From Alphaproteobacteria bacterium (GTDB taxonomy: Bacteria > Pseudomonadota > Alphaproteobacteria > Rickettsiales > SXRF01): a stretch of DNA of 64,000 nt. This document shows, piece after piece, positions 8,601-31,131 of this stretch (positions are counted from its first letter, which is position 1; every line of letters begins with the position of its first letter). The stretch spans positions 372,001 to 436,000 of the forward strand of contig JANYES010000019.1 in NCBI GenBank assembly GCA_025362975.1. Direction: 5' to 3'. A model generated the notes under the pieces. It was given only the letters and a program-made list of their open reading frames with translations, was not told where the DNA came from and ran no database searches. A program made the position numbers and the translations under genes.

Positions 8601-8817
8601 AAAGACCCTTTCAACACTTAAAGATAAAAAGCTTAAGATTGAGCAATGGCGGGAGAGCACACAGGTAGCAGCACAAGTTAAAACCATTATTTTCGATAGC
8701 CTGCAATGGCTTCCCCGCGAAGCGTATAAAGATGAAGAGGTTACAAGTAAATCTGATCTTGTATATCAGCATATTTATTCAACTTATCGTGACGGTACGC
8801 TAAATCCCTATCACTGA
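5633..8817 (+). pseudogene. hsdR: Type I restriction subunit HsdR, frameshifted near the N-terminus
   Basis: The motor and nuclease subunit of type I restriction. The natural start is ATG 5633 (MSYEYSEDGLVEAATQEVLE, the classic HsdR N-terminus). After WKK the frame is lost in an A5 run (5723-5727); one extra A restores WKKETFGDDGLLGR and a 1061-residue protein. A long frame beginning GTG at 5719 covers the remainder (1032 aa). In it one sees the PD-(D/E)xK site (D120, ELK 134-136), Walker A HTQGSGKS (268-275) and DEAH (373-376). If the shift is real, only an N-truncated HsdR could be made. The 3' end overlaps the convergent integrase gene by 7 bp. Confidence 0.88.
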
Positions 8818-10033
8818 TATTTTTTATTTTCGGACTCGAATTGCAAAACTTTATTTTTGCTGTTGGATAACATTTCATCCAGAAAATTGGCATATTCCTG
8901 CATCATTTTTTTGCGTTCAAGCAGGTATTCAGCGCGGTTATAGGCAGACCTGATTTTGTCCTCATCCTCATGGGCAAGCTGGCGTTCAATAATATCAGGG
9001 GGGTAGCCTTTTTCATTCAGGATGGTACTGGCAAGGGTGCGGAAACCGTGGCCTGTCATTTTGTTCTGGTAGCCCATGCGCCGAAGCCCCATAAGCACCG
9101 TGCCGTTGCTGATATGCTTGGACGCGCTGGCTGCGCTATGGAAGATATGGGTTTTATTGCCTGTGTAAGCCTGCAGCTGCTTGAGAATGGCAAGGGTTTG
9201 GCTCGATAGTGGTACGACATGCGGGCGCTTCATTTTCATGCGCTCCTTCGGTATATACCATTCTTCTTTATCCCAGTTGATTTCTTCCCATTTCGCGCCG
9301 ATCAACTCGCCAGTACGCACAAAGGTAAGCATGAGTAACTTCATGGCGTATTTGCCAAAGTTATTGCTCTGGGCTTCGATTTTAGCCATTAAGTCCGGCA
9401 ATTCGCTGGGATGGATGCAGGCATGGTGCTTGTCTTCCTGCGAGGGCAATATATCCCGCAAATCAGCGGCGGGGTTATGCTGGCATAGGCCGCGCTGGGC
9501 AGCATAGCGGAATATCTGCCCCATAAGCTGCTTCATGCGCTTGGCTGTTTCAACCGTGCCACGCTTGCCGATGGCCTCCACCACTTCCACCACGTCAGGA
9601 ATGGTAATATCAGTAATGGGCAAATCACCTATGCGGGGGAATACATGCTGTTCCATCCTGACAAGGCATTGCTTGGAGTATTTGGGGTTTAGCCCGCCTT
9701 CTTTCATTTCCAGCCAGCGGCGGGCAATTTTTCAAAACTGTTTTCACCCTCATGGGCTTTACGCAATTTCTGGATTTTCTTTTCGCGGGTAGGGTGTTTG
9801 CCAGATTCTAAAACTTGCCTTGCTTCATCCCGGCGTTTCCGGGCATCGGATAATGATACGGCAGGATATTTTCCCAAAGCCAGAATCTGCGCTTTGCCCT
9901 GATAGCGATAACGCCAGCGCCATAGCTTTCCGCCTGCGGGCGATACTTCCAACACAAGGCCTCCGGTATCAGAAACCTGATAAGACTTGTTTTTAGGTTT
10001 GAAATTTTTGATTGCGAGTTCAGTGAGTGCCAT
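8811..10033 (-). pseudogene. P4-type tyrosine integrase (DUF4102 + catalytic domain), frameshifted
   Basis: The N-terminal half (MALTELAIKNFKPKNKSYQV..., DUF4102 arm-binding domain) and the C-terminal half (TFVRTGE Arg, GHGFRT H-x-x-R, LAHED His, nucleophile Tyr near the C-terminus) are in different frames. One extra A in the A5 run (T5 at 9728-9732 on the plus strand) joins them as ...SFEKIARRWLEMKEGG..., giving 407 residues, the normal P4-integrase length. Its start faces a tRNA-3'-end-like fragment about 160 bp away, the usual arrangement for this integrase type. It is convergent with hsdR and shares 7 bp of coding sequence with it. It probably carried the restriction island into the chromosome. 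Confidence 0.87.
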
Positions 10034-10192
10034 GTGTACCGCCGCCTGCGTATATAAAATTCTATACACAAATCTATACACATTATTTTTGGCTTATAGC
10101 AAGTCGCTTTGGACAGCAAAGACCATTTCTATTGTTTAATATAGGTAATTTTCTTTGTTTTGGATGAAGCTGGACTGTATGAAAACAGTAAA

Positions 10193-11532: not shown

Positions 11533-11667
11533 TCTCTTGTACTTGCAGCATTTTTTTTAAGATAGCACAAACTAATACGCAAACCCTTTATATACCGTTA
11601 TATTTTCCGACCTCGTCATCTATAGACAAAAACCTGTTCGCGGCGTTAATATTGAGGGATGCTCTCC

Positions 11668-12948
11668 ATGCCCCTTGATAACGCTTTTCCCGCCTCCGGC
11701 CTGCGCTGGTTGTATGTGGATTTCAACAGCTATTTCGCCAGCGTCGAGCAGCAGATGCGGCCGGAACTGCGCGGCAAGCCCATAGCGGTGGTGCCGGTGG
11801 AAACAGACGCCACCTGTGCTATCGCCGCCAGTTATGAGGCGAAGGCCTTCGGCATCAAGACCGGCACGCCTATTTGGGAAGCCAAGAAAATTTGTCCAGG
11901 CATTATCTGCGTGCTGGCGCAGCATGAACGCTATGTTGAATACCACCATCGCATTCTCGAAGAGGTCGATCATCATATTCCTGTAACGGCGGTATGCTCC
12001 ATCGACGAAGTAGCCTGTCGGTTGATGGATAATGAAACATCGGTGGAGCGCGCCACGGCGATTGCCCATTCCATTAAGCGCGGGCTGGCAAAAAATGTCG
12101 GTGAATATGTGCGCTGCTCGGTCGGTATCGCGCAGAACCGTTACCTAGCCAAAGTCGCCACCGACCTGCAAAAGCCCGATGGCCTGACTTTGCTGCGGCC
12201 CGGCGATCTGCCGGAACGCCTGTTTAGCCTTAAACTACGCGACCTGCCGGGCATAGGGCGTAATATGGAGCGTAGACTTGATATGGCTGGTATCAGGGAT
12301 ATGCGCGCCCTTATGGCGCTGGACGCGCAACATATGCGCAAGGCCTGGGGCAGCGTATGGGGTGAGCGCATGTGGCATCTGCTGCGCGGCGCTGACTTGC
12401 CGGAAGAGGAAACCTCGCGGCGCACGGTCGGCCACAGCCATGTCCTTGCGCCGGAAATGCGCGAACCGGCCAAAGCCAAGTACGTCGCCCGCCGCCTTAC
12501 GCTTAAAGCCGCCAGCCGCTTGCGCCGCATGGAATATTACGCCGGTGCTCTTTCGCTGTCGGCGCGTATTGAAAACGGCGCCCGGCTGGAAGGCGGCATG
12601 CGCTGCTACCGAGCGCAGGATTCCATGACGTTCCTGCATCTGCTAGACAAGCTGTGGGACGGGCTTATGCGCGAAGCGCGCGGCGCTCGTATCAAAAAGG
12701 TATCGATCACCCTGCACGAGCTTGTTCCTGCCAATGGCCTGCAGCCGGAACTGTTCGACGCGCTGCCGGATTCCGATATGCTCGAACGCGCCAAATCTGA
12801 GAAAATCTCGCGTGCGCTCGATAAAATCAATCACCGGTTCGGGCGCGATTCTGTATCGGTCGGCATGCTGCCATCCCAAGGCCGGAGCTTTTCCGGCACT
12901 AAAATCGCTTTTACCCGCATTCCGGATGTGGAGGAATTTCTGGAATAG
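11668..12948 (+). CDS. Y-family DNA polymerase (UmuC/DinB type)
   Basis: Translesion polymerase of 426 residues. The palm domain shows YVDFNSYFASVEQQ (first catalytic Asp) and CSIDEVACRL, which corresponds to the SIDE catalytic pair of Y-family enzymes. Helix-hairpin-helix residues follow at LRDLPGIGRNMERRL, then a little-finger domain from about residue 240. Start ATG 11668 is favoured over 11659 because GAGGG sits 9 nt upstream of the former and abuts the latter. UmuC-like length (about 420) fits. No umuD or lexA-type neighbour is present and I see no obvious LexA box, so damage control is not shown. It stands alone on the plus strand between minus-strand genes. Confidence 0.92.
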   Translation: MPLDNAFPASGLRWLYVDFNSYFASVEQQMRPELRGKPIAVVPVETDATCAIAASYEAKAFGIKTGTPIWEAKKICPGIICVLAQHERYVEYHHRILEEVDHHIPVTAVCSIDEVACRLMDNETSVERATAIAHSIKRGLAKNVGEYVRCSVGIAQNRYLAKVATDLQKPDGLTLLRPGDLPERLFSLKLRDLPGIGRNMERRLDMAGIRDMRALMALDAQHMRKAWGSVWGERMWHLLRGADLPEEETSRRTVGHSHVLAPEMREPAKAKYVARRLTLKAASRLRRMEYYAGALSLSARIENGARLEGGMRCYRAQDSMTFLHLLDKLWDGLMREARGARIKKVSITLHELVPANGLQPELFDALPDSDMLERAKSEKISRALDKINHRFGRDSVSVGMLPSQGRSFSGTKIAFTRIPDVEEFLE

Positions 12949-13601: not shown

Positions 13602-14126
13602 TCAAGGCTGATATTCCTCGCCTTCATCCCACAGCTTTTGCCAATTATTAATAAATTCTTTCGCCAGCTTTTTATTATTCTTAATGACGATGACATTCTC
13701 CGCGTTGTGCTTTTCTGCATTGGCAGTGTAGTTAAAGCTGCCCGTTTCAACGGTGCTGTCATCAACAATCAGATATTTATCGTGCATGATCGCATAATGC
13801 CGATTGATGCGGATCGGGATACCAGCGTCCTGCAATTCTTTAATCGCTTTATAGTGACGTTTGCCCTGCGCCTTATCCAAAAGCACACGCACTTCAACAC
13901 CGCGCTGCTTGGCCTCGATCAGTGCATCAGCGATCTTGTAGGATGTGAAGGAATAAGCAGCCAGATCGATGCTATGTTCCGCATGGCCGATGGTGGCTTG
14001 CACCAGCGTTATGGCCTCCGGCGATGGTGAAAATGCCGCCTGCGTCGATTCGCGTGCGGACGCTTGCGGAGCTGATAATGCAGCCGAAATTAGCAGAGAA
14101 ATGGCTAGAAAACGCAGTCCTATCAT
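13602..14126 (-). CDS. PLD-family nuclease with signal peptide
   Basis: 174 residues. Residues 1-24 are a Sec-type signal peptide (LRFLAISLLISAALSAPQASA). The rest is a single phospholipase-D fold with one HKD motif: H115-D-K117 with DD and the GSFNYT segment. It resembles the Nuc/EDTA-resistant endonucleases, which dimerise to complete the active site and cut DNA without metal. The gene overlaps the upstream nuclease gene by 4 nt and is the last clear gene of the WYL-headed operon. A periplasmic DNA nuclease in a helicase/nuclease operon could act on incoming DNA; that role is inference. Confidence 0.85.
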   Translation of the reverse strand: MIGLRFLAISLLISAALSAPQASARESTQAAFSPSPEAITLVQATIGHAEHSIDLAAYSFTSYKIADALIEAKQRGVEVRVLLDKAQGKRHYKAIKELQDAGIPIRINRHYAIMHDKYLIVDDSTVETGSFNYTANAEKHNAENVIVIKNNKKLAKEFINNWQKLWDEGEEYQP

Positions 14127-14680
14127 TCGATTTTGCCTCGTAGCAATAGTTTGGCGACCACGGCAGAAACCTGATTCTCATAGCCCATCTCCGACATGCA
14201 TTGCAGGCGTTCCTGTAGCCATTTCTCGTCCCATAATTGCCAGCCCTTGGCGTCAAAATGCTTATGCAAGCCCTCTCGATCCTTGTTGGAAGCTATGCGC
14301 CCACACGCCAAGCATAATTGCATTTTCGCATCGGGCGGACACAGGCCGGATTCGGTCATTTGAATTTTTAGTCGGTTAAAAACTACATCCTGCAGGTTTT
14401 TATCATCACTGAATAATTTGAACCGTTCCGCGAACTTCTGATCGTTGCCGTCAAAGGCGCGCAGGGACACGCCTCGTGAATCCAAATAGCTCTTACATTC
14501 AACCACTCGAATAAGATTTTCCCGCCCGCTATAGGCGACCACATCGATCTCCCAACGTGGCGATGATGGCTTTCCGATCTGGCGTTTTTCCTCTTTGGTC
14601 AATTCGACCTTAAAGGAAGTGCGCACCCAATAGCCTTCCATCCACAGGATTTCACTGACCAACTGTTCAAATGCGTCCAT
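14123..14680 (-). CDS. PD-(D/E)xK restriction-endonuclease-like protein
   Basis: 185 residues from ATG 14680, chosen for the AAAGGAA 7 nt upstream. The core shows an Mrr-like layout: E10 in the first helix, GYWVRT, D46 in EIDVVAY and E61-C-K63 in VVECKSY. This is the standard metal-binding pattern of PD-(D/E)xK nucleases. Two cysteines (LCLACGR) lie in the C-terminal half. It is the fifth gene after the WYL regulator, 20 nt after a tiny membrane-protein gene, and overlaps the PLD gene by 4 nt. DNA cleavage is predicted from the fold; specificity is unknown. Confidence 0.75.
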   Translation of the reverse strand: MDAFEQLVSEILWMEGYWVRTSFKVELTKEEKRQIGKPSSPRWEIDVVAYSGRENLIRVVECKSYLDSRGVSLRAFDGNDQKFAERFKLFSDDKNLQDVVFNRLKIQMTESGLCPPDAKMQLCLACGRIASNKDREGLHKHFDAKGWQLWDEKWLQERLQCMSEMGYENQVSAVVAKLLLRGKIE

Positions 14681-14700
14681 GTTATTTCCTTTCGTAATTG

Positions 14701-14808
14701 CTAATCGTCGTCGCACCTATGGTTATGGTGCCGATGGTTGCCGCCCAAAATCAGCCAAACCCAAAATGCGGTGGGGCTGACTAAATAGAGTAGGATTCCT
14801 GTAAGCAT
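14701..14808 (-). CDS. Tiny single-helix membrane protein
   Basis: 35 residues: MLTGILLYLVSPTAFWVWLILGG, then a His/Asp-rich tail (NHRHHNHRCDDD). A perfect GGAGG lies 7 nt before ATG 14808, inside the end of the clamp-like gene, and the gap to that gene is only 2 nt. The spacing and ribosome site make it likely to be real. The His/Asp tail might bind metal. Its function in the operon is unknown. Confidence 0.6.
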   Translation of the reverse strand: MLTGILLYLVSPTAFWVWLILGGNHRHHNHRCDDD

Positions 14809-14810
14809 AG

Positions 14811-15131
14811 CTATGCCTCCTGTGCTGCTATCGAGAATTTTTCAATGAATAGTCTGCCGTCTTTAAACCGAATGTGCTGTGTCTCTGAATCGGTCAGCAC
14901 TTTCTCAAAATTCTTAGCAATCTGCGCAGGAAGACTAACGGTAATCGGCCAGTTTCCCTCGGCCGGAACGACCGTTTCCGCAACAGGGCCGCGCAGCGTA
15001 AGCTGACCTTTTGCAAAGAGCAGCGAAAAGTTGCCGGTGGTTTTTTTCTTAATGCCAAACACCGCAGTTTTGATGCCTTTTGCGAGATCATCACGATTTA
15101 CGGTAAGCACATATTCGTTGGATTTTGTCAT
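14811..15131 (-). CDS. 106-aa protein, possibly sliding-clamp-like
   Basis: MTKSNEYVLTVNRDDLAKGIKTAVFGI... is all-beta/alpha with the pattern FSLLFAKGQLTLRGPVAETVVPAEGNWPITVSLPAQIAKNFEKVL...IRFKDGRLFIEKFSI. This repeats the kind of strand-helix-strand layout seen in one domain of the DNA polymerase III beta clamp. The similarity is by eye only, and the protein is about a third of a clamp. It overlaps the helicase-nuclease gene by 4 nt (ATGA), which suggests they work together, perhaps as a processivity or specificity factor (inference). It could also be an unrelated fold. Confidence 0.6.
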   Translation of the reverse strand: MTKSNEYVLTVNRDDLAKGIKTAVFGIKKKTTGNFSLLFAKGQLTLRGPVAETVVPAEGNWPITVSLPAQIAKNFEKVLTDSETQHIRFKDGRLFIEKFSIAAQEA

Positions 15132-18100
15132 GCGGCGCCTCCTGTCTTTGGTTTAGATGCATAATCATCGAGCCAGCAGAAGGTGTTCACAAGCTTCATC
15201 TGGTCGATATTTCCGCATGGAATTTCGAGCAGCTTTGGATTGGCGACGACCACGGCCACGCATTGCGCACGGGAAATTGCGACATTGAGGCGGTTTTTGC
15301 TGTATAGGAATTCGATATTGCGCGGCAGGTCTTCGGCGCTCGACGTGACCATCGAGACCAGCACTACAGGCGCTTCCTGCCCTTGGAATTTATCGACGGT
15401 GCCTACTTTCGCGCCTGGCGGCAATATCCCGCGCAGGTGATTGACCTGCACGTTGTAGGGACTGACGACAAGAATATCATCTAAGCCCAATGTTCTGACC
15501 GTGCCGTCCTTGTCGTGAAACTGCTGCCGCAGCAGTGATTCGTAGCACTCCTTGATCACAGCGCCTTCCTCGGTGCTTTTCTGTGAGCATACTGTGTGGT
15601 CTACCGGCAGGAGATAAATGCCGTCACTGGCAATGCCTTTTACTGGCTTATCAAATATTATGTACCGTTTGCTGTTTCCCGCGTCGGCTTCAAGACGGCC
15701 TTCGTAAAAGGCACTGGATATGAATTGGCAGATCGAGGGATGAAGACGGCGTGTATTGTGCAGGAAGATGCCGCGATCGGGCGGAATCGTCGCATAATCA
15801 CCCAGTAGGAATTCGAGGATGGATTTACCGGCTTCGCCAGGATGCACACCCTGTATAGGCTGTCCCAGCTGCATCTGGTCGCCGACCATGATGATGTTTT
15901 TTGCCGCCGCGCCCATCGCCACCACGTTGGCAACCGACACCTGTCCGGCTTCCTCGATGATCAGGTAGTCAAGCTGCTGGTCAAACTGTTCGTCGGCAAA
16001 GAGCCACGCGGTACCGGCGAGAAACTGTGTCGCAGAGGTAATGCCGTCATTTTTATCGATGCTGCGGATATTCTGACCGTCATAATAGGACTCCTCGTTT
16101 CCGGCGGAACACTTCTTGGCGCCGCGAAACGTAAAAGATTCCTCTGCCGCCACCGACTCTACCCTATCAAGCAGGTTATGGATGGCCTTGTGTGAATTGG
16201 CGGTAACGCCGACCCTTTTGCCAAGCCGCAGCAATGCAATGATGACGTATGCGCTGGTGTAAGTTTTTCCTGCTCCTGGCGGCCCCTGAATGAATAGGTA
16301 GCTATTATCGAGCGCCGTGATTGCCTTGATGGTTTCCGCCAGCAGATCACCATCGCCGACAATATTCTCGCCAGCGTTTTTGCCCTTAATGCGCGGGATA
16401 GAATTATTAAGCACATCAATAACGGCGGCATAGTCATTTTTGCCAGAGGCTATGCTTTCGGCGACACGATAAACCGCCGACCGGATAACCTTTGTAGCGA
16501 TGGGCGTTGGTGGCCCTAAATTGAGCGTCGCCGGTAACTCTCCTTGTGAATTGCCGCGCTTAATCCTGATAATGCAGCGATCCTCGTCCAGTTCCACGAT
16601 CGTGCCAACGCTATCCATCGTCTCGATATTGATCGGTTTATCGCCAGGCTTCATCTTATATTCCTGCGCGGGAAAACGGTAGGTGTAGATCTGCGACCGC
16701 TTCTCTGCCTCCGGTTTGCCGACCATCGTCAGACCGCCGAGGCATTCCGTATCAGCGATCAGTTCATCCTCGAATTTATCCTGACGCTCATAACTCGCCC
16801 ACCATTGCGGCTTGGCTTCACGATTGTGGAATTCAAGAAGATGCACGATGCGTTCGCGCATGCGACGATCCTCTTTTTTGGCTTCGTCCAGTAAGCGGCG
16901 TGAATAGGCTTCGTACTCGATTTCCCATTCCTTACGCTCCGGCTTCTGGTCGTCATTTGCGGCTGCTGGCGAGAACCACTCTATCTCAGGTGGCCGGAGA
17001 CCGAGCAGCCATTCCCGCAGCTTGTAGGTCGAGATGCAGTCGATCTCGTTGTATTCAGCGATCTGGCGCAATAGCTCGTCGTTACGCGTTTCACGCCATT
17101 CGTTGTAAACGACGATACTGTCACCGGCGGTCGCCACCGCGCCGCTGCGCTTATCCATGTAGAAGGTTTCAAAATTTTTGATGGAGTATGCCGGTTCCGA
17201 TATGCGCAGACATTCACGCACGACCTTGAACAGATCAACGAATTTATGCTGGCGCAATAGATTGTCTAACTGCTCCTCTGCCACGCCATAGCGACAGGCC
17301 AGCCGTTTAAGAGCGGTCGTTTCATAGTGATTGTAGTGGTAGATGTAAGCGTTCGGAAATTCCTTCAGGTGGTTTTCGAGGAATTGCATGAATTGCCCAA
17401 AGGCGACGCGCTCTTCATCGTGACTGTGCGCCCAGAATGGCACGAATATGCGGTCATTTTTTTTCGCAAAATAAAGGCCGAACAGATATTCGAGGCCATT
17501 CGGGTGCAGAGGATCGCCCTCCATGTCAAAGAACAGGTCACCGATGTCCGGCTCCGGCAGGCGGTGGAAACCTTTGCTTTCAGGGAATGGGATGATTTCG
17601 CATTTATCTTCACCAGTCGTGCGCTTGTGCATCTGCAGTGCCGCCTGTGCACGCAGCCGGTCAAACACATCGGGATTCATGTCGGGGATTTTACTGGCGG
17701 CAGGAAACGCGGCCAACGCCGCAAGGGTGTTGATTCCTTCGCTCTGCAGCTTATCGATCTGTGTGCGCTGCATGTTGGCGACCAAGCTCAGGTGGTCGTC
17801 GCTTTCCCATTGCGCCTCGCACCTGTCTTTCCATTTGCAGAATTGGCAATACTGACATGGTTCAGGGTATGATCCTGCTGGCTGGCTGCTCACAAAGGCT
17901 TCAAACCGGCGCTTGGCATGGCCGTAATAGTAAAAGAAATCATCTGCCTTAAAGCTCTCCAGCCGCTGATCGCCAAGGAATACATGCATCTGCTTAGGCC
18001 GGACGCCTTGAAGATCGGCCAGCAGATCGTTGTAAACGGACAGTTGTACTATGTGCTTCGGCTCGGCGTTCCTTGCCAGCTTGGTATCGAGCACCTCATA

Positions 18101-18484
18101 GCTGAAATCACCCAGCGCCGATGGCAAATCCACTTTGAGCAAAAAGTCGGCATCGCCCCGCCAGTTATACTTGAAAAGCACTCCCTGGTACACTACATCG
18201 GCGCCGGATTGCAGCGCCTGACGTGTCATCTCCACACGCTCCGGCAGTTTAGGCTCCTTTGGGATTTCGACGATGCGTTTGCCTTCCTGTCGCAGCTTTG
18301 CCAGGTATGCCGCCTCGTGCTCGAAGCCTTTTTTCTGCAGCAGCTTATTGTTTGCCGACTCTTCGGCCTTTTCCATTTTCTCGGAAAAACTCTGCAGGTC
18401 GAGCACAGTGCTATGGTGGCAGCTGAGGAAATGCACCAGATCGGAGGGGGAATACAAATACTGTGCGTCGCCGATTTTCTGCAT
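15128..18484 (-). CDS. TM0106-type RecB nuclease / RNase-H-like exonuclease / SF1 helicase fusion
   Basis: 1118 residues with three modules. First, a RecB/Cas4-like nuclease: D111/D113, D133-x-K135 and a cysteine cluster C210, C213, C216, C222 likely to hold an Fe-S centre. Second, a DEDD-type exonuclease: FDMEGD at 319-324, YHYNHYE, and YNEIDC near 480. Third, a superfamily 1 helicase: GPPGAGKT 734-741, IIEEAG 842-847, GDQMQLGQ 868-875, VDKFQGQE 1030-1037, NVAISRAQ 1067-1074. This is the TM0106-family layout. It starts directly after the upstream gene ends and overlaps the next by 4 nt. It is the central DNA-processing enzyme of this operon. Confidence 0.9.
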   Translation of the reverse strand: MQKIGDAQYLYSPSDLVHFLSCHHSTVLDLQSFSEKMEKAEESANNKLLQKKGFEHEAAYLAKLRQEGKRIVEIPKEPKLPERVEMTRQALQSGADVVYQGVLFKYNWRGDADFLLKVDLPSALGDFSYEVLDTKLARNAEPKHIVQLSVYNDLLADLQGVRPKQMHVFLGDQRLESFKADDFFYYYGHAKRRFEAFVSSQPAGSYPEPCQYCQFCKWKDRCEAQWESDDHLSLVANMQRTQIDKLQSEGINTLAALAAFPAASKIPDMNPDVFDRLRAQAALQMHKRTTGEDKCEIIPFPESKGFHRLPEPDIGDLFFDMEGDPLHPNGLEYLFGLYFAKKNDRIFVPFWAHSHDEERVAFGQFMQFLENHLKEFPNAYIYHYNHYETTALKRLACRYGVAEEQLDNLLRQHKFVDLFKVVRECLRISEPAYSIKNFETFYMDKRSGAVATAGDSIVVYNEWRETRNDELLRQIAEYNEIDCISTYKLREWLLGLRPPEIEWFSPAAANDDQKPERKEWEIEYEAYSRRLLDEAKKEDRRMRERIVHLLEFHNREAKPQWWASYERQDKFEDELIADTECLGGLTMVGKPEAEKRSQIYTYRFPAQEYKMKPGDKPINIETMDSVGTIVELDEDRCIIRIKRGNSQGELPATLNLGPPTPIATKVIRSAVYRVAESIASGKNDYAAVIDVLNNSIPRIKGKNAGENIVGDGDLLAETIKAITALDNSYLFIQGPPGAGKTYTSAYVIIALLRLGKRVGVTANSHKAIHNLLDRVESVAAEESFTFRGAKKCSAGNEESYYDGQNIRSIDKNDGITSATQFLAGTAWLFADEQFDQQLDYLIIEEAGQVSVANVVAMGAAAKNIIMVGDQMQLGQPIQGVHPGEAGKSILEFLLGDYATIPPDRGIFLHNTRRLHPSICQFISSAFYEGRLEADAGNSKRYIIFDKPVKGIASDGIYLLPVDHTVCSQKSTEEGAVIKECYESLLRQQFHDKDGTVRTLGLDDILVVSPYNVQVNHLRGILPPGAKVGTVDKFQGQEAPVVLVSMVTSSAEDLPRNIEFLYSKNRLNVAISRAQCVAVVVANPKLLEIPCGNIDQMKLVNTFCWLDDYASKPKTGGAA

Positions 18485-19210
18485 TCAAACAAGTTCCTCT
18501 CTATTCACATGCGCTTCAAAATACGGGAGCAGTTTGGCCTCAAAGAAATCATGACCTAATCGTGCGCGTAGCTCAGTGATAATATCTGCGATAGGATCAG
18601 CGGGTTTGCCGTCCCTGGATTGGAAATGTAGGAATGTACCGTTGGAATCGAGTCGATATTGTTTGCTTAAAAGATGCTTTGTAACAGTAGCGTCTTGTTC
18701 GGATTCGCTGCGGACGACTGCAAATTTCACAGGATTAAAGCTGACATGCAGATAGGCATTATCGACTCTAGACAGGCTGATATGCTCAGGTTTATGCATG
18801 TCCACGCGATAAAGTGGTGCCTCGTACTCGACGGCAATAGGTTCATGCTCAACGCTGTAAGTGCATTTATTGCTGAATAAGCGCTGCGTGATGTCCTCTG
18901 TTTTTTGATCAAGGGCGGCTGTAAGTTCCGGCACCTCACGTAGTAAGGAGCAAAAATCCAATACCTCCTGCACCGCACGCATAATCACTTCATTCTTGCG
19001 CGCCACCAGTTGTTCCGCCTCTCGCAGAATGGTTCGTTCTTTCTCTTCATCTGCGGTAAATCGCGCATGGATAGCGCGGGCTATTTGAAGGAAACGCGGG
19101 ACTTTTGGCGCATTTACTTCCTCATCATCATCCTCAAAGGCGGATATCGGAATTTCGCCATGCTGCCCTTGCTCTTTGTTTTTACCGGTATTTCTGCATA
19201 ATGAAATCAT
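18485..19210 (-). CDS. Unknown 241-aa protein of the WYL operon
   Basis: Start chosen at ATG 19210, 7 nt after AAAGGA; an ATG 6 nt earlier is too close to it. The N-terminus is acidic (AFEDDDEEVNAPKVP), followed by a helical region rich in Glu and Arg (about 45-100) and a beta-rich C-terminal half. There is no signal peptide, membrane segment or recognised catalytic motif. It begins 12 nt after the WYL gene and abuts the helicase-nuclease gene without a gap. Strict coupling suggests it is a subunit or regulator of the large enzyme; that is inference. Confidence 0.7.
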   Translation of the reverse strand: MISLCRNTGKNKEQGQHGEIPISAFEDDDEEVNAPKVPRFLQIARAIHARFTADEEKERTILREAEQLVARKNEVIMRAVQEVLDFCSLLREVPELTAALDQKTEDITQRLFSNKCTYSVEHEPIAVEYEAPLYRVDMHKPEHISLSRVDNAYLHVSFNPVKFAVVRSESEQDATVTKHLLSKQYRLDSNGTFLHFQSRDGKPADPIADIITELRARLGHDFFEAKLLPYFEAHVNREELV

Positions 19211-19222
19211 GGTCATTCCTTT

Positions 19223-20209
19223 CTATTTTTTTAAATTGTTATAGAGTGTTTGCACCATTTCATTGTAGGTTTTGCGTAAGTGGGCGGGTTCAAGAATTTC
19301 CGCGTGTCCCTCCCATGTCATGACGTACCAGCACATCTCCTTAACGCCGCCCGCCTTGAAACGCACTATGATCGAGCCATCAGGCTGATCCTCGATCTTC
19401 TGCGACGGATGGAAATGATGATCCCTCACGCCGTCAGCGACTTCGGCTGAAAACCGCCATGCGACATCGTATGGTTCTTCCTGGAAAACACCGAAGGAAC
19501 GCTCGGCATATTCTATGAGGTCAAAACTAGGGTCTTTGCGGAATGGCGCGTGAATCAAGGTGATATCGGAGATGTTCGGCAGGCTGAATGAACGCAGGCC
19601 TTTTCCGTCCTCGCACCAGGCTATCAGATAATGGCGCAAGCCATACACGAAGCCATAAGGATGCACCACGCGCTCGGTGACATCGCCTTTGACACGGCCA
19701 TGATAGGTAATGCGGACTTTGCAAAATCCTTTAATAGCCTCGCGCAGGATATAAAGTACATGCGGGTTGATACGCGGGCGCGGCCCTGGGCGCATAGCGT
19801 GACCTTCCGCCTCCAGCAATGCCTCTAGGTCGGTTTCTATGCTGGCGGCACTCTCCGGCCGCAAACGGCCTTTGATTTTCAGCCAGAGCCGGTCAAGGTT
19901 TTCGGCGTGCTGCGTCAGCCCTTCTTTTTTCAGCAGTTCGATGCCGGTTTTCATCTCGGTGAGATCTTCGGCGGAAATCTGAATAAGCCCAGCCATCGCA
20001 CTCGGCGGCAACTTCCACCGTTTGGTTTTTCCGTCATGGCGTATCTCTTCAACGTGCGGGAAAAGCTGCAATAACGCATCGCGCATCCGTTCCGCCGTCC
20101 GGCGGCCGACTTCGAATTCCTCTTGAATCTCCTGCAGGCCGACACCCTCCGTTGATGCCTGCATCATGAGGGCAAGTTTCAGTAACTGTTCAGTTCGTTC
20201 CATTCTCAT
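19223..20209 (-). CDS. WYL-domain transcriptional regulator
   Basis: 328 residues. There is an N-terminal winged HTH (about 1-60: LLKLALMMQASTEGVGLQEIQEEFEVGRRTAERMRDAL), then a linker and a WYL domain (about 140-240: NPHVLYILREAIKGFCKVRITYHGR...HPYGFVYGLRHYLIAWCEDGKGLRSFSL). A C-terminal WCX-like extension follows. The namesake tripeptide is HYL here. AAGGAG lies 9 nt before the ATG. It heads a minus-strand operon of DNA-processing enzymes. WYL proteins often control defence operons by sensing nucleic acid or nucleotide ligands. Two copies of a 17-bp palindrome sit just upstream and are good candidates for its operator. Confidence 0.9.
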   Translation of the reverse strand: MRMERTEQLLKLALMMQASTEGVGLQEIQEEFEVGRRTAERMRDALLQLFPHVEEIRHDGKTKRWKLPPSAMAGLIQISAEDLTEMKTGIELLKKEGLTQHAENLDRLWLKIKGRLRPESAASIETDLEALLEAEGHAMRPGPRPRINPHVLYILREAIKGFCKVRITYHGRVKGDVTERVVHPYGFVYGLRHYLIAWCEDGKGLRSFSLPNISDITLIHAPFRKDPSFDLIEYAERSFGVFQEEPYDVAWRFSAEVADGVRDHHFHPSQKIEDQPDGSIIVRFKAGGVKEMCWYVMTWEGHAEILEPAHLRKTYNEMVQTLYNNLKK

Positions 20210-20248
20210 GTGGCTAACTCCTTATGTTTGCCACGTTATACCATACAC

Positions 20249-20265
20249 ACGTCAAATGTGGACGC
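20249..20265. promoter_or_regulatory. 17-bp palindromic operator candidate, copy 1
   Basis: ACGTC-AAATGTG-GACGC; on the opposite strand GCGTCCACATTTGACGT. It lies 40 bp upstream of the WYL start and matches copies at 20290 and 20865 in the frame RCGTCC-N5-WGACGT. It overlaps the region expected for the WYL promoter. Confidence 0.6.
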
Positions 20266-20289
20266 ATATCTTTCCAGCCATTTTCTGAT

Positions 20290-20306
20290 ACGTCCGATTT
20301 TGACGT
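20290..20306. promoter_or_regulatory. 17-bp palindromic operator candidate, copy 2
   Basis: ACGTCCGATTTTGACGT. Its start is 41 bp from the start of copy 1, about four helical turns, so both copies face the same side of the DNA. It lies 46 bp upstream of the ankyrin gene and could control both divergent genes. Confidence 0.6.
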
Positions 20307-20351
20307 ACATCTCCTGTATTGAGAGAATCCAATCATAAATGGGAGAAACAT

Positions 20352-20861: not shown

Positions 20862-20864
20862 TGC

Positions 20865-20881
20865 ACGTCTAAAATGGACGT
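20865..20881. promoter_or_regulatory. 17-bp palindromic operator candidate, copy 3
   Basis: ACGTCTAAAATGGACGT, the reverse of the ACGTCC-N5-WGACGT form. It starts 4 bp after the ankyrin stop codon and 88 bp before the first lipoprotein gene, so it could extend control to that cluster. Confidence 0.5.
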
Positions 20882-20968
20882 ATTCGGATTTACGCAATTT
20901 TAAGCACGACCACATTTGGCGTGTGACTCGTTTATGGGTTGATGACTAACCCTAACCACGAGGAATTT

Positions 20969-22477: not shown

Positions 22478-22657
22478 ATGGAATCAGATATTCTTACAAT
22501 CCGGGAAGTTGCTGAATATCTAAAGCTCAATGAAAAAACCGCCTATCGCTTTGCAGCCGAAGGTAAGATACCAGGCTTCAAGGTAGGCGGCGCATGGCGT
22601 TTTCGCAAACGCGATATCGATAAATGGATAGAGAAACAGGGAAATAAAAAGAAGTGA
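22478..22657 (+). CDS. Excisionase-family helix-turn-helix protein
   Basis: 59 residues: MESDILTIREVAEYLKLNEKTAYRFAAEGKIPGFKVGGAWRFRKRDIDKWIEKQ. This is the compact HTH_17/excisionase fold with its usual G-x-W-R-F wing. Such proteins often sit at the head of restriction or defence operons, and some act as recombination directionality factors. The stop overlaps the GTG/ATG start region of the next gene (GTGA at 22654-22657), so translation is coupled. It probably regulates this operon. Confidence 0.85.
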   Translation: MESDILTIREVAEYLKLNEKTAYRFAAEGKIPGFKVGGAWRFRKRDIDKWIEKQGNKKK

Positions 22658-25600
22658 GTATGGCAAAATCCAGCGATCTAAGATTTTTTACAAATACTGA
22701 GAGTGATTCACTCTATCAGCGCTTTCTCTCCACAATGAAGGATGCGCAGAACTTTGATATATTAGTTGGCTATTTCCGTACCAGCGGCTTTTTCCGTCTG
22801 TACAAGCAGATCGAAAAAATTGAAAAGGTGAGAATTTTAATTGGCCTTAATACTGACCGTAAAAGTTTTGAACTGTTCGATGAAGCAACCCACCAAGGTG
22901 CTCTCGATCTGGAATCGCATAAAAAATGTAGGGAAATTTATGCTCATACCCTAATCGACGAAATGGAAACAACCGAAGACTCTCATGCGGTGGAGATAGC
23001 TGCTCAAAAATTTATTGAGTTTATCCAATCAAAGAAATTGGAACTTCGCGCCCATCCCAGCCGTAATCTGCATGCGAAAGTATATATCACTCGTTTTCAT
23101 GACGATGATCGTGATTTTGGCCGTGTTGTTACCGGCTCAAGTAATTTTTCTGAAAATGGGCTTATTGCCCAGCGCGAGTTCAATGTGGAACTTAAAGACC
23201 GGCCCGATGTTGAATATGCCCTAGAGCGATTTGAGGAGTTGTGGGCAGAAGGTGTCGATATCTCCGATGAATATATTGACACGATCCGCGACAAAACCTG
23301 GCTTAATGACCGTATCACACCCTACCAGATATACTTAAAGTTTCTTTACGAGTATTTTAAAGAAGATATCAACATTGAGGAAGAGCTGGAGTTTAGTTTA
23401 CCCGACGGCTTCATGGATCTGGCCTACCAAAAACAGGCGGTGGTATCGGCCAGGAAAATTCTCGATACCTATAACGGCGTTTTTCTCTCGGATGTGGTAG
23501 GTCTCGGCAAAACCTTTATTACAGCGCTATTACTTCAAAAACTGCCCGCAGGCCGAAAGCTGGTCATATGCCCTCCGGTGCTGGCGGATTACTGGCGTGA
23601 AACCCTCCACCAGTTTTATGTGCCTGGCTTTGATATTGAGTCGCTTGGAAAGCTAGATCGCATCCTTGAGCGCGGGGTTGATAAATATACATACATTATT
23701 GTTGACGAGGCTCACCGTTTCCGGAACGAGCTAACCAGCGGCTATGAGACGCTACACAAAATCTGCCGCAATAAAAAAGTTATCCTCGTCTCTGCGACAC
23801 CGCTGAATAACAAACTGGAAGATATAAAAACACAAATTAAATTATTCCAGCCTGCAAAAAACAGCACCATACCCGGCGTACAGAACATAGATAATTTCTT
23901 TAAAGCCCAGCAGAAAGAGCTGGATCAATATGAGAAGGGAACACCTGAATATCTCGATGCCGTAAAAAGAACATCTGAGAGAGTGCGAGACAAAGTGCTC
24001 AAACACATAATGGTACGCCGTACCCGGTCAGAAATTAGAAACTTCTTTAGTGAAGATATTTCTAAACAGGGATTGAAGTTCCCTGATATGGCGGAACCAC
24101 AGCGCATTGTCTATGAATTCGACAGCAAAACGGAACAGGCATTTAACCAAACTATCGACCTGCTTAAAAACTTCTCATATGCCCGCTATACACCTCTGCT
24201 TTATCTTAAGAAACAGCTGAGTGAATTTGATTTGCAGTCGCAGCGCAACGTTGGCGGGTTTATGAAGGGCATTTTGGTAAAACGTCTGGAAAGCAGCTTT
24301 TATGCATTTAAAAAATCGCTTGATCGCTTTATCCGCTCCTATGAGCGGTTCATCGGTATGTATGATGACGGCACCGTTTGGATAAGTAATAAAGTAGATG
24401 TTTTTGAGTTATTAGATGCTGATGATGAAGGAAAGCTGCAATCTTTAGTCGAAGAAGATAGAGCGCAAAAATATCAATCCGCAGATTTCCTTCCTGACTA
24501 TAAAACCAAATTGCAACATGATCTCGAAATACTGAAGCGCATTGCAAAATTGTGGCAAGCTATAGACGCAGACCCAAAGGCCGACTACTTCATAAATGAA
24601 CTGAAGAATAATCGCATACTTGCCGGTCAGAAGGTTCTGGTATTTAGCGAATCCAAAGAAACGGTGGATTATTTGCAGGATAGGCTAAATAAGCATTTTC
24701 CCGGTACGGTGCTATCCTATTCAAGCCAGGGAGGTGCTTATGATGGCACTGCCCACCAGGGCGAATTCCTGCGTGAATTAATCAAAGCCAATTATCAACC
24801 CAAATATCCCAATCCCAAGGACAACGTGCATATCCTGCTGACTACGGACGTGCTGGCTGAAGGCATTAACCTTCATCGCTCTAATATTATCATAAATTAT
24901 GACCTTCCTTGGAATCCCACACGAGTCCTGCAGCGCGTCGGCCGCGTTAATCGTATCGGCACGGCGCATGACAAGGTATTTGTTTTTAATATTTTCCCCA
25001 CCGCCCATTCCGAAGCGCATTTAGGCCTGGAAAACAATATTAAAGGAAAAATTCAAGCCTTTCATAATACGCTTGGCGAGGATGCAAAATATCTCAGTGA
25101 CGACGAAGAATTATCCACACACGAGCTTTTCGGAGAACGGCTCTATCGCAAATTAAATGATAAGCAAACTTTTGAGGGCGAAGAAGAAGTTGATTCGGAA
25201 CTCCGATACCTAAAGGTAATTCGGACAGTACGGGATAAAAATGCCGATCTCTTTGCCAAGATAAAGAGCCTACCAAAGAAAGCGCGCTCAGGACGTCTAT
25301 TGCCGGAGAACCTTGCGCAAAATGCTGATCGCTTGCTGACGTTTTTCCGCAAGGGTCGCCTGAAGAAATTTATCCTTGCGGATAAAACCAGCCCTATCGA
25401 ACTTACCTTTTTAGAGGCAGCCCACCTGTATGAATGTGCGCCCGATACTCCGGCGTATGCAATACCGAAGGAATATTTTGAGTTTTTGCAGGTCAACAAA
25501 GATTATCTCAGTGAAATTACGGGAGATGAGAGCATTGATATGCAGGCTGGCGGAGGTGGATCGTCTAACGAAGCTCAAATTCTTAAAACCATCAAAGCTG

Positions 25601-25866
25601 TCATCGGAAAATTCAAGGGATTTACTGACGATGACGAGGAATATCTCAAAATGGTGCGGGCAGCACTTGAGAACGGCACCATCCCGCGCAATACCAGCAA
25701 GCGCATCAAACAAGCTATGGAGAAAAACCTTACGCCATTAAATGTCCTGCAAGTATTACGCAATCATATTTCTTATGATGATCTCTACATTGATAGCCAC
25801 AAGCCAAAGGAACAGGCAATACGTGAGGTCATACTGTCCGAATATTTGGCAGGTAGTGAGGCATGA
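22654..25866 (+). CDS. PLD-nuclease / SNF2-type helicase fusion
   Basis: About 1070 residues. The N-terminal PLD-like domain shows LHAKVYI (139-145) and GSSNFSENGL (161-170). The superfamily 2 helicase of SNF2 type has DVVGLGKT (280-287), DEAH (351-354), SATPLNN, and C-terminal TDVLAEGINLHRSN and QRVGRVNRIG. Start is GTG 22654 or ATG 22660. It is coupled to the HTH gene upstream and overlaps the methylase by 4 nt. The helicase-plus-methylase pairing recalls DISARM and related systems, but no drmA, drmB or drmC is present. Likely role: ATP-driven scanning and nicking of unmodified DNA (inference). Confidence 0.88.
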   Translation: MSMAKSSDLRFFTNTESDSLYQRFLSTMKDAQNFDILVGYFRTSGFFRLYKQIEKIEKVRILIGLNTDRKSFELFDEATHQGALDLESHKKCREIYAHTLIDEMETTEDSHAVEIAAQKFIEFIQSKKLELRAHPSRNLHAKVYITRFHDDDRDFGRVVTGSSNFSENGLIAQREFNVELKDRPDVEYALERFEELWAEGVDISDEYIDTIRDKTWLNDRITPYQIYLKFLYEYFKEDINIEEELEFSLPDGFMDLAYQKQAVVSARKILDTYNGVFLSDVVGLGKTFITALLLQKLPAGRKLVICPPVLADYWRETLHQFYVPGFDIESLGKLDRILERGVDKYTYIIVDEAHRFRNELTSGYETLHKICRNKKVILVSATPLNNKLEDIKTQIKLFQPAKNSTIPGVQNIDNFFKAQQKELDQYEKGTPEYLDAVKRTSERVRDKVLKHIMVRRTRSEIRNFFSEDISKQGLKFPDMAEPQRIVYEFDSKTEQAFNQTIDLLKNFSYARYTPLLYLKKQLSEFDLQSQRNVGGFMKGILVKRLESSFYAFKKSLDRFIRSYERFIGMYDDGTVWISNKVDVFELLDADDEGKLQSLVEEDRAQKYQSADFLPDYKTKLQHDLEILKRIAKLWQAIDADPKADYFINELKNNRILAGQKVLVFSESKETVDYLQDRLNKHFPGTVLSYSSQGGAYDGTAHQGEFLRELIKANYQPKYPNPKDNVHILLTTDVLAEGINLHRSNIIINYDLPWNPTRVLQRVGRVNRIGTAHDKVFVFNIFPTAHSEAHLGLENNIKGKIQAFHNTLGEDAKYLSDDEELSTHELFGERLYRKLNDKQTFEGEEEVDSELRYLKVIRTVRDKNADLFAKIKSLPKKARSGRLLPENLAQNADRLLTFFRKGRLKKFILADKTSPIELTFLEAAHLYECAPDTPAYAIPKEYFEFLQVNKDYLSEITGDESIDMQAGGGGSSNEAQILKTIKAVIGKFKGFTDDDEEYLKMVRAALENGTIPRNTSKRIKQAMEKNLTPLNVLQVLRNHISYDDLYIDSHKPKEQAIREVILSEYLAGSEA

Positions 25867-28800
25867 AAAAGCCGGAAGCCGAGAAATTAGTTAATGATAC
25901 CTTCACACATCCCTATGATGAGGAACGCTTCCGGCTATTTATTAATAATCTATTTCATGATTATGAGCGACTGACTGAAAAAGCATCGAGCGGTCAATAT
26001 ATCCCCGAAGCGTTCCAGGACGGCATTTTATCTTATAAACGACTTGCTAAATTCAACGATCCAGAGGGTATGGAGGTAGATGTTCTGGCGGTTAAATTGC
26101 CTGGCCGCAGAACTTTGGAAAACGCGCGCACGATGCAGCGTAATTTTATAGCCCGCTATTTGAATGGTAGTCGCGGAGGCACTCTGAAAGATGCAGCCTT
26201 AGTTGCCTTCTATTCCGATGACTCTGAGGACTGGCGTTTTTCTCTGGTTCGGATGGATTATAAACTTGATGAGGAAAAACAAAAAGTTCACAAGGAATTG
26301 ACACCTGCCCGGCGCTATTCATTCCTAGTTGGTCGCAGCGAAGGCACGCATACGGCACGTCGTCAGCTGATCCCCGTTCTTGTTTCCTCCACGGAAACCA
26401 CACTGGCCGAGCTGGAGACGGCATTTAATATTGAAACCGTTACCAAAGAATTTTTTGAGAAATACAAGGCACTCTACCTAAGCCTTAAAAATGCGCTCGA
26501 CCAGCATCTAAAGAAAGATACAAAAACTAAAACTGAATTTGAAGCCAAAGCCATCAAAACGGAGGATTTCGCCAAGCGCCTACTTGGTCAAATCGTTTTC
26601 CTATATTTCTTACAAAAGAAAGGCTGGCTTGGCGTAGCTAAAGGCCAGGCGTGGGGTTCGGGGCCGAAAGATTTTTTGCAAACGCTCTACCGTGGCGAGT
26701 ATGGCAGCTATGATAATTTCTTTAATGATGTGCTAGAGCCGCTGTTTTACGAGGCCTTGGCCACCGAGCGCACTGATAACTTCTATCAGCGATTTAACTG
26801 CCGCATCCCTTTCTTGAACGGCGGCTTGTTTGAACCTATCCACTACTATGATTGGGTAAACACTGACATTTTGCTCGATAACGCCATTTTCAAAGAAATA
26901 TATGAGGTGTTTGACCTCTATAATTTCACGGTACGTGAGGACGAGCCACTCGATAAGGAAGTCGCAGTTGACCCTGAAATGTTGGGTAAAGTATTTGAGA
27001 ATCTGATTCCTGAGAATGAGCGCAAAGGTAGCGGCACTTACTACACCCCCCGCGAGATCGTTCATTATATGTGTCAGGAGAGCCTGATCAATTACCTGGA
27101 TGCCAAACTGAACATTGAAAGCCGTCCTGTAGAAGAGCGTGGCCAGCAAAGTCTAATACCTGATATGAGTAAAACTGATCTGCTCACCAAGTTTGAGGAT
27201 GTCTATGTGCCTGTGGTGCCGCATGAGGATTTGGCTGAGTTTATTTATCACGGTGACGTCGCGCAGGAGCATGATGCTACAGCAGAGATTAAAAATCAGC
27301 GGGAAAATTATAAGGGTGATTATCAGCACAAAATCCCTGAAAGCGTCCGCAATTATGCCCAGCAAATTGATGATGCGCTGGCCAGCGTAAAAATTTGCGA
27401 TCCGGCTATCGGTTCCGGCGCATTCCCCGTAGGCGTTATGAATGAGATTGTCCGTGCACGAAGGGCTCTTAATGCGTATTTGGGGCTTGATGGCCGCAGC
27501 CCTTACGACTTCAAACGTCATGCCATTCAGGAATCCATATATGGTGTGGATTTAGAGCCTTCTGCCGTCGATATTGCTAAGTTGCGGCTCTGGCTCTCGC
27601 TAGTGGTGGATGAAGATGATTTCGGTACCATTAAGCCGCTTCCTAACTTGGAATATAAAATTGTTTCTGGAAACTCATTATTAGGTGTCGAGAAAAACCT
27701 GCTTAACAATCACCATTTTGCCGAACTAGAAAAATTGAAAGACCAATATTTTGATGAAACTCGCCCATCAGAAAAAACAGACTAAAATTACGAATTGAGT
27801 CCATTATTGGTGAATTGTTAGAACAGAATAGCAGATTTAGTTTTGAAATTTGTTTCAGTGAAGTTTTTAGGAAACATGGAGGATTTGACATTTCCATTGC
27901 AAACCCACCCTATGTGTTTGCGCGAGAAAGTAAAGAAAAAGGTATAAGCTCTAAAGACAAAGAGCATTTTTATAAGCACTTCACACTCGCAGAATATCAA
28001 GTAAACTTGTACCCGCTATTTATTGAGCTATCTACAAATACACTGAAACGCAATGGTACATTGTGCTACATCACGCCTAATAATTGGATGACAATAAATA
28101 CCAATACTAAACTTCGTAAGTTAATATTGGATCAGTCTGATGTAACCATTGTCAATTTTTACGCGAAGGTATTTGAGTCTGCAAATGTTGATAGCTCGAT
28201 CATAATTTTTCGCAAAGGCGATGTAAATCCTCACGTTGATCTTTATGAATATCAGACTGGTTTCAACTTGATAGTGCGGCAGAAAACCCAGCATTTCAAG
28301 AACGATAGATTGATGATAATAAATATTGAATCTCTGAAAACTGCATCATCACTTCCTTTACTTAAAAAAATTGAGGCCTGCTCGGAACGACTATCAAATA
28401 TAGCCTTAGTAAAAGCAGGACTACAGGCTTATGAAATTGGAAAGGGTAACCCTGCTCAAACAAAGGCAATGAAAGATTCTAGGATTTATCACTCAAAATC
28501 AAAAGTGGATAATTCTTATTTAGAATATTTAGATGGGAAGGATGTCTGTAGATACTACTCTACATGGGGCGGAGAATTCCTGAAGTATGGTGATAATCTT
28601 GCTTCTCCGAGAAAAATGGGGCTTTTTGACACTAAACGCATTTTGGTGCGGCAAATACCCTCAAAACCTCCCTATTGTATAAATGCCTGCTATCTTGAGA
28701 ACAGCGTTCTTAATGATCGCAACTCAATGAATGTCGTAAACATCAGAGTCGATCCTCATTACCTGCTTGGAGTATTAAATTCAAAAGCTATATCGTATTG

Positions 28801-29080
28801 GTTCATTCATAAATTTGGTAAACTTCAACGAGGCCTTTTCCCTCAATTTAAAATCAATGAACTTCAAGATTTTCCTGTTCCCAAGGTAGATAATGCTTTG
28901 GTGAAGAATCAAATTTCTAAATTTGCCAAAAGCCTAAGAGGCATACTTGAAAAAAATGGAAGTAAAGCAAGTTCTGAGGCAGAGGCTCAATCCTTAAACA
29001 GAAAAATCGACCAACTCGTTTACCAATTATACGATCTTACGCCGGAAGAAATCGCCATCGTTGAGCAGGCTGTGCTGTAG
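25863..29080 (+). pseudogene. Class I adenine methylase (Eco57I/type IIG-like), split by a frameshift
   Basis: The first frame (25863-27785, 640 aa) carries the N-terminal helical region, a YTPREIVHYM segment and SAM motif I (DPAIGSGAFPVG). The second frame (27815-29080 as an ATG/TTG frame) begins just before the catalytic motif NPPY (ISIANPPYVF) and holds the target-recognition domain. One extra A in the A6 run (27772-27777) joins them through EKKNRLKLRIESIIGELLEQNSRF into 1072 residues, the usual size. If the shift is real, motif I and the NPPY motif fall on separate polypeptides. It overlaps the helicase gene by 4 nt. Confidence 0.87.
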
Positions 29081-30063: not shown

Positions 30064-31130
30064 TGGATAAAAAAGGCATCATCCAAGAGCACAGCAAAAT
30101 CAAACTAGAACTCTACCGACTTTACTTAGAGCTTTACCTAACAGTTTTGCTCAATTCAGGGCGTTTTAGTGAAGTTTTTGTGCATGACATATTTGCAGGT
30201 AGCGGAAAATCTGCAAATGATGAAAAAGGCAGTTCCTTGTTAGCGGCCGTAGAAATACAAAAAATTCGCGGCAAATTTCCTAACATTCCAGTTACTCTGA
30301 GACTGAATGAAAAATGCCAGGAAAAATTTACGCGTCTAAAAGACTTGCTAACGCCATTTGCTTTTGCGACATCCTTTAATTTGGATGCCAATGATTATAT
30401 TCAACAATGGAATATGCCAGCGGGGAGCCATAATTTATTCTTCATCGACCCTCATGGTTATACGCAGGTATCGATAGACAATCTGAAGAGTCTATTTTCG
30501 ATGGAGAGATGTGATTTTCTCATATTTGTCCCGATATACCATATTTATCGTTTTCTTAGAAAAGAGGAGGACGCGGAGCAGCTAAAGCCTATAGCAAATT
30601 TTCTGCATGATCTCAGTATTGGTGAAGCCGATGCTATAAAGGCAAACAGCGTGGAAGAATTTACGGAACTGGTAATGGATGCACTTCAGCATATCTCCGG
30701 TACCGAATGGATTTATAAGGAGATGATCGAGAATCGTACACACAACAGTAAATATTGTCTCATTTATATTACTCGGAACATCCTGGGAGCAGAAAAATTT
30801 CTGGAGGCGCAATATCAGCTAAAAGAAAAACTTAAAGCAAATGAAGCTCAAGCAGAATTTGATTTTGTCGAAGACTTGGAGAAACGTTCTATTCTTGATT
30901 TTATTGAACGTGAAAGACTATACGATAACGTTAATCTTTATAAGATCGGGATTCAGGTGGGGCTTCTCCCTAAACAATTAAATAATGAGCTGAAAAGCCT
31001 TGAAAATAATGCTATGGTGGCGATAACACCATATAAAGATAAAGAACGAAAGAAAAAGGGATTCTATATAAATTATAAAAATTATAAAGCTCAGGACAGC
31101 ATCGTGTCCATAATGTTCAAAAGAGGATAA
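30063..31130 (+). CDS. Three-Cys-motif partner protein (TcmP family)
   Basis: 355 residues from ATG 30063, which overlaps the upstream TGA (TGATG). The N-terminal half is Rossmann-like, with [11 protein letters not shown] and LFFIDPHGY; the DP(x)G(Y) motif is typical of TcmP and resembles a methyltransferase motif IV. The C-terminal part is helical. The family is named for co-occurring with a three-cysteine protein, and exactly such a gene follows immediately. This supports both calls. Biochemistry of the pair is not established; they occur in phages and defence islands. Confidence 0.85.
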
Positions 31131-31131
31131 C

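Follow-up and report, generated by a model that had tools for sequence, protein, structure and literature searches.

A compact operon on the minus strand of a 64,000-nucleotide (nt) stretch of alphaproteobacterial DNA (contig JANYES010000019.1, positions 372,001 to 436,000; the whole stretch is called the window below) was followed up computationally. The core of the locus is read as a two-gene cassette of alphaproteobacterial plasmids and chromosomes, in which a DriD-type WYL regulator is paired with a TM0106/COG2251 nuclease-helicase and which most likely serves anti-phage or anti-plasmid defence; this reading is given about an even chance of being right. It is based directly on homology, conserved catalytic residues, recurring linkage and co-divergence of the two genes, the boxes upstream of the regulator, and the agreement between recognition helix and box. 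An initial sequence-only reading of the window had proposed a WYL-controlled nuclease and helicase locus in which seven genes formed a new defence system. The regulator, the enzyme and the defence-rich setting stood; the seven genes as one system did not, and the pair is described here as a WYL-controlled nuclease-helicase instead.

The nuclease-helicase and its pairing with a WYL regulator

The enzyme of 1118 amino acids (aa) was matched by TIGR03491 (E 1e-90, 304.9 bits, passing the curated cut-off of 97.45) and by the Pfam domains RNase_H_2 (E 2e-29), AAA_11 (E 1e-11) and AAA_12 (E 7e-26). It is thus predicted, in agreement with its first description as a RecB/DEDD/SF1 enzyme, to join a RecB-like PD-(D/E)XK nuclease with a Cys cluster, a DnaQ-like RNase H fold domain and a superfamily 1 (SF1) helicase. 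For residue comparison, the window enzyme was aligned with 40 near-full-length open reading frames (ORFs), giving 41 sequences. At the RecB-type site, D133, K135 and Q147 were kept in all 41 and D113 in 40; Cys 22, 213, 216 and 222 were each present in 37/41 and Cys210 in 26/41. D320, E322, D417, Y478 and D482 were invariant, as were the helicase residues K740 (Walker A), G868, D869 and Q872 (motif III), D1031 and Q1034 (motif V) and R1072 (motif VI). Sequence relatives of the helicase part in the PDB were SMUBP-2, UPF1/NAM7, SEN1 and DNA2. COG2251 is presented in PMC3985635 as PF13482 carrying a PD-(D/E)XK-like domain, often with AAA domains; 3'-5' exonuclease activity is presumed there.

Matches to the enzyme were found in 69 plasmid records (tblastn, E 1e-20), the match covering 80% or more of the query in 59, and in genome samples (E 1e-40) in 9 of the 385 genomes of the class and 17 of the 398 of the phylum, the window's own genome being counted in both. 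Besides the window, 44 enzyme loci were examined: 20 plasmid loci chosen from 40 listed rows, and 8 and 16 loci from genomes, of which G475 and G802 contribute two each. Two of the 44 are split by insertion (L028, L067) and two are partial (L082, L083).

Of the 44 loci, 20 had a strong relative of the WYL protein from the window (defined as E <1e-100) no more than ~1.1 kb from the enzyme, and none was present elsewhere in the same 44 stretches (linked loci by batch, 3/10 and 8/10 on plasmids, 3/8 and 6/16 in genomes). All 20 linked loci belong to Alphaproteobacteria (plasmids by their records, genomes by membership of the window's class). The WYL gene was on the strand opposite to the enzyme in 17 and co-directional, which is the window arrangement, in 3. 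Other WYL genes were seen at L068 and L069 (a weak, different WYL upstream of the enzyme) and at L023 (two annotated WYL genes, missed by the WYL profile). When the search was reversed, 19 plasmid records were found to carry a WYL relative (E 1e-50), and in 10 of the 15 listed it lay within ~1.1 kb of an enzyme match; a Leisingera record had its best WYL match ~10 kb from the enzyme and a second WYL gene close by, and the remaining four of the 15 stretches had no enzyme. Pairwise identities of the WYL proteins and of the enzymes were correlated (Mantel r 0.825 over 21 pairs; 0/2000 permutations as high), a value to which shared host ancestry can add. The two genes recur as a pair and co-diverge.

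A related arrangement was noted in genome G037, where two DriD-like WYL genes (L117:6115-9495 and L118:6061-9614) are convergent to a small gene and to a DUF2779 protein with a weak Cas4-like match and no helicase, one of the two loci lying beside an HsdR gene. This is possibly a helicase-less cousin of the WYL and enzyme pairing.

Of the 20 plasmid loci that carry annotation, 14 (L020, L021, L024-L028, L059, L060, L062, L063, L065-L067) had neighbours of defence or toxin-antitoxin type, judged by product name and with no null; examples are BREX, McrC, ThiF/multiubiquitin, TIR and Abi genes. At L024, L025, L027, L059, L060 and L063 the enzyme adjoins varied modules (SbcCD-like, TrlF, McrBC-like, multiubiquitin/ThiF) in the fashion of a plug-in.

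Proposed DriD-type control and the upstream boxes

The presence of a WYL regulator, recognised at the outset, was borne out by the Pfam WYL and WCX profiles (E 3e-13 and 2e-16); its DriD type and the DriD-style box upstream had been overlooked. Against the Caulobacter DriD entry 9pfq (taken as DriD via the PDB codes in the preprint PMC12340889), phmmer aligned residues 1-313 at E 1.8e-54, with the stretch vgrrtaermrda identical. Judged by this alignment, the window protein is an end-to-end DriD homologue, from winged helix-turn-helix (wHTH) to WCX. The same preprint describes DriD as activated by single-stranded DNA (ssDNA) and as binding ATACGAC-N7-GTCGTAT, with arginines to the core guanines, at a site that brackets the -35 element.

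The window holds one perfect box of this style, a candidate operator upstream of the WYL gene (Table 1), and the 3.26 Mb genome holds one more perfect site, inside a relaxase ORF on contig C16. Boxes with at most 2 mismatches numbered 5 in the window against 0.78 expected, two of them in the polymerase and prophage parts; in the W-form with 1 mismatch there were 3 against 0.14 expected, one in the prophage part. The other DriD-like WYL gene of the genome (G000 C16:18247-19318, equivalent to L101:3233-4319) encodes a protein 72% identical to that of the window. TACGAC-N7-GTCGTA lies between it and type IV secretion system (T4SS) genes (VirB11-type ATPase, VirB2-type pilin), and a relaxase and a VirD4-type gene are found on the same contig ~15 kb away, an arrangement (L101 and L102) that suggests ssDNA-responsive control of conjugation.

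Recognition helix and box were compared for 22 WYL genes (window, C16 and the 20 enzyme-linked), the box being sought from 350 bp ahead of the gene to 60 bp into it, the WYL starts of L075 and L077 being estimates. All four genes with the helix RRTAER[ML]RDA had TACGWC-N7-GWCGTA with 0 or 1 mismatch, and 17 others had TGWCA-N5-TGWCA with 0 or 1 mismatch, so that helix type and box type agree in 21/22; GWC-N7-GWC is common to both box types. In a separate count, TGWCAGN3TTGWC was present in the 1.1 kb upstream of the enzyme gene at 12/20 WYL-linked loci and 0/20 unlinked loci (4 of the 24 unlinked, L028, L081, L082 and L083, being left out of the count), with 6 occurrences elsewhere in 620,674 bp.

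The pair would most likely work as follows. Damage, resection or an invading replicon would yield ssDNA, which, by analogy with DriD, would bind the WYL domain as its ligand. The WYL dimer would bind the upstream GWC-N7-GWC box and turn the operon on, probably acting by activation and not by repression. The enzyme would load on abnormal ends or forks and unwind them by its SF1 motor, and its RecB-like and DnaQ-like sites would degrade the strands, DNA being the presumed substrate.

Operon layout, accessory genes and island

Seven tightly packed ORFs, head to tail on one strand at 13602-20209, were confirmed as first described (Table 1). Intergenic spacings in operon order were +6, 0, -4, +2, -16 (GTG start) or +20 (ATG start) and -4, which include the four junctions already noted as overlapping or within 2 nt. 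The ATG at 14680 in the 197-aa frame is preceded by an AGGAAAT-like ribosome site and is the likely start.

Table 1. Features of the operon and candidate boxes (window coordinates)
Feature	Position	Strand	Basis and remarks
DriD-type WYL transcription factor, operon gene 1	19223-20209	-	328 aa; Pfam WYL/WCX; phmmer to DriD
243-aa protein, no known family (241 aa from second ATG)	18485-19216	-	ORF; homologues L003, L004/L008, L007
TM0106/COG2251 enzyme, 1118 aa	15128-18484	-	TIGR03491; RNase_H_2; AAA_11/AAA_12
106-aa protein	14811-15131	-	ORF; one plasmid homologue (Microvirga)
35-aa putative membrane peptide	14701-14808	-	by-eye reading; AGGAGG-like site ahead of start
PD-(D/E)XK-like protein	14123-14716	-	197 aa from GTG; 185 aa from ATG 14680; EID...ECK by eye
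Phospholipase D (PLD)-family nuclease (NucT-like), apparent signal peptide by eye	13602-14126	-	174 aa; PLDc_2
Perfect DriD-style box TACGTC-N7-GACGTA, candidate operator	20289-20307		79 bp upstream of WYL start (20209); only perfect site in window
Weaker candidate box, 2 mismatches	20248-20266		between perfect box and WYL start
1-mismatch candidate box	20864-20882		also scored as terminator-like stem

The five other proteins of the operon (243, 106, 35, 197 and 174 aa) gave zero significant matches across the 44 enzyme loci by profile and tblastn searches, including the 243-aa and 106-aa proteins that the sequence-only reading had proposed to seek beside TM0106-type enzymes. The 243-aa profile, run against every ORF of 50 aa or more in these loci, came no closer than E 4.2; for the 106-, 197- and 174-aa proteins nothing fell below E 0.5 among the same ORFs. 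Against the DNA, tblastn returned five matches at E <=1; the best, of the 243-aa protein in L061 (E 0.063), was rejected as chance and lies inside another gene on the opposite strand. The 35-aa peptide is so short that its tblastn miss carries little meaning. When the 243-aa protein was compared with 11 chosen enzyme-neighbour proteins (hhalign), the best probability was 2.9%. In the stretches that hold homologues of the 243-, 106- and 197-aa proteins the enzyme was absent, save for a 64-residue helicase match in L008. Conservation of the seven-gene set was rejected: the five accessory genes are not kept with the enzyme in the 44 loci, where only WYL and enzyme recur, an outcome that the sequence-only reading had named as refuting its proposal. 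The 243-aa gene, together with the four genes that follow the enzyme, looks like an accessory of this island, added locally.

The 243-aa protein, first given as an unknown protein of 241 aa, belongs to no known family. It was found in 2/90 related genomes and 1/385 of the class (own genome counted in both) and at 2 loci in genome_contigs. Its homologues lie on contig C7 of the same genome, in an island with integrase and primase (L003), near a gene that is HsdR-like by eye (L007), and in an integrase-bearing stretch ahead of a different kind of helicase-like ORF (L008/L004). A model from a three-sequence alignment (predicted local distance difference test, pLDDT, 70) has a long helical hairpin, a beta domain and two C-terminal helices; this fold had zero PDB or viral matches at E 0.001, and relatives of the 243-aa and 106-aa proteins were not found in viral contigs. 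A clamp-like nature had been proposed for the 106-aa protein and found no support (no profile family, no PDB relative, single-sequence model with pLDDT 37); its homologue on a Microvirga plasmid is 36.7% identical.

The 197-aa protein had been called a PD-(D/E)XK nuclease; the motif is seen by eye, and profile matches are weak, with PADLOC REase_II at E 0.0033 and Pfam Mrr_cat at E 0.19. A homologue, 54.6% identical, lies beside an integrase on R. rhizogenes pC6.5e, and in a sample of 81 genomes the 197-aa and 106-aa proteins were each found in the own genome only (1/81). For the last protein of the operon, the PLD assignment held (PLDc_2 E 1.5e-31; phrog_12711 E 1e-47; NucT model E 2e-16, under that model's cut-off), the signal peptide remaining a reading by eye.

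The operon is in an island that holds other defence genes. A Y-family polymerase (11659-12948) adjoins it on one side; on the other, an ankyrin gene is followed by the 1-mismatch box and a BamE-like gene. PADLOC matched both the methylase and the nuclease of a type I restriction-modification set, as well as a TIR-type gene (candidate PDC-S35). It also matched, at 22654-29080, an HKD-SNF2 helicase, after which a type IIG-like methylase is spread over two ORFs (25863-27785 and 27815-29080), possibly one split gene. A gene pair at 30060-31851 matched the candidates PDC-M30A and PDC-M41B/M30B. Past ~32 kb the window was read by eye as prophage. An integrase (8811-10081) is broken into two overlapping ORFs, one with Arm-DNA-bind_3 and one with the central and catalytic domains.

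Weighing of readings and comparison with known systems

Several observations weigh against a defence cassette under DriD-type control. A strong DriD-like WYL was missing at 24 of the 44 loci, including that of the closest enzyme relative (L029, 59% identical), which lies by eye among unrelated metabolic genes. On plasmids, L019 and L058 had no defence neighbours, those of L022, L023, L061 and L064 were not clear enough to count, and L019 has DNA-damage genes as neighbours (AlkB, DinB, another Y-family and an error-prone polymerase). Helicase motif II of the window enzyme reads EE (Glu844, codon 15953-15955), DE being found in the other 40 of the 41 sequences, and this Glu-for-Asp change may weaken the motor. 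L071 breaks the helix/box rule (SRSTAERMRDA with a TGWCA box) and L063 also carries a 1-mismatch box of the other type; the 1-mismatch TGWCA cases are only modestly rare, being reached by 2-5% of shuffles, and this box was first noticed in the same sequences that were later used for counting. A genome-wide regulon drawn from the box pattern was rejected: weak boxes carry no weight because sites with at most 2 mismatches were fewer in the genome (38) than in the reversed control (137). A phage assay of a TM0106/COG2251 enzyme was not found in the open-access literature searched.

The main rival is a repair or end-processing operon, in which a DriD-type switch would induce a resection-type enzyme after damage, beside SOS, with no specific phage role. 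DriD itself, according to PMC12340889, drives a damage response with targets that include the didA, bapE, dnaG and recJ promoters. The adjoining Y-family polymerase and the repair-type neighbours of L019 point the same way, as does the 106-aa homologue in Microvirga, which has mutagenesis-type polymerase genes at a distance of 3 to 9 kb. However, the patchy spread of the enzyme in the class and phylum samples, its 69 plasmid records and the defence-type genes often found near it are more in keeping with an accessory role than with housekeeping, and we consider the repair reading rather unlikely. Alternatively, the switch might serve mobile elements in competition or transfer control, the enzyme attacking rival plasmids or protecting its own element. 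The C16 regulator with its box toward T4SS genes and the number of plasmid matches agree with this, but no transfer genes were seen to be directly linked to the window enzyme, and such a role is judged improbable. That all seven genes form one new multi-nuclease defence system is more improbable still: one strand, overlapping junctions and a shared promoter region with boxes speak for it, yet five of the genes had no significant match at the 44 enzyme loci, homologues of three of them (243, 106 and 197 aa) occur in stretches that lack the enzyme, and the PLD protein looks exported.

If the cassette of regulator and nuclease-helicase is indeed for defence, it may represent, more tentatively and on balance doubtfully, a widespread unnamed immune module outside SOS. 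In it, an ssDNA sensor of the DriD family would serve a single nuclease-helicase and evolve along with its operator (two helix/box pairs), and the module would plug in beside interchangeable effectors (McrBC-, SbcCD-like, ubiquitin-like, TrlF). The operon of the window, headed by the sensor with its own box in front, would then be self-amplifying on ssDNA. The ligand of WYL regulators at defence loci is a standing question, and for the subfamily seen here the ligand (ssDNA) and the operator are known and structures have been solved. Its tie to one uncharacterised nuclease-helicase by linkage, co-divergence and helix/box agreement makes possible a direct test of ssDNA switching on an immune enzyme outside SOS.

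The window regulator resembles DriD of Caulobacter crescentus in its end-to-end alignment, its wHTH stretch and the geometry of its box. According to PMC12340889, DriD does not act on the gene that encodes it; in the window, the WYL gene lies behind the box and opens the operon. Like BrxR, it is a WYL factor adjoining defence genes; BrxR is reported as a repressor (PMC9122601), and the window WYL is closest to the activator DriD. The enzyme shares the domain set and conserved residues of TM0106/COG2251/TIGR03491 proteins and differs by Glu844, and its five companion genes were unseen with the 44 other members examined. The gene set had not been recognised as a named system, and PADLOC matched none beyond part of the enzyme, the best stretch never exceeding a part in any model listed for it. 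The top match was MkoA of Mokosh, which matches the SF1 part (E 2.5e-44); three stretches align with MkoA, the best, in the helicase part, being 890-1080 of 1112 (191 positions). The N-terminal half of the window enzyme is a TIGR03491 module. Against the PLD parts of MkoB and MkoC the PLD protein scores E 5e-7 and 1e-9, but it looks exported and, although within the window operon, has no link to the enzyme elsewhere. Fusions of WYL to nucleases and to an SF1 helicase are listed in PMC4012209.

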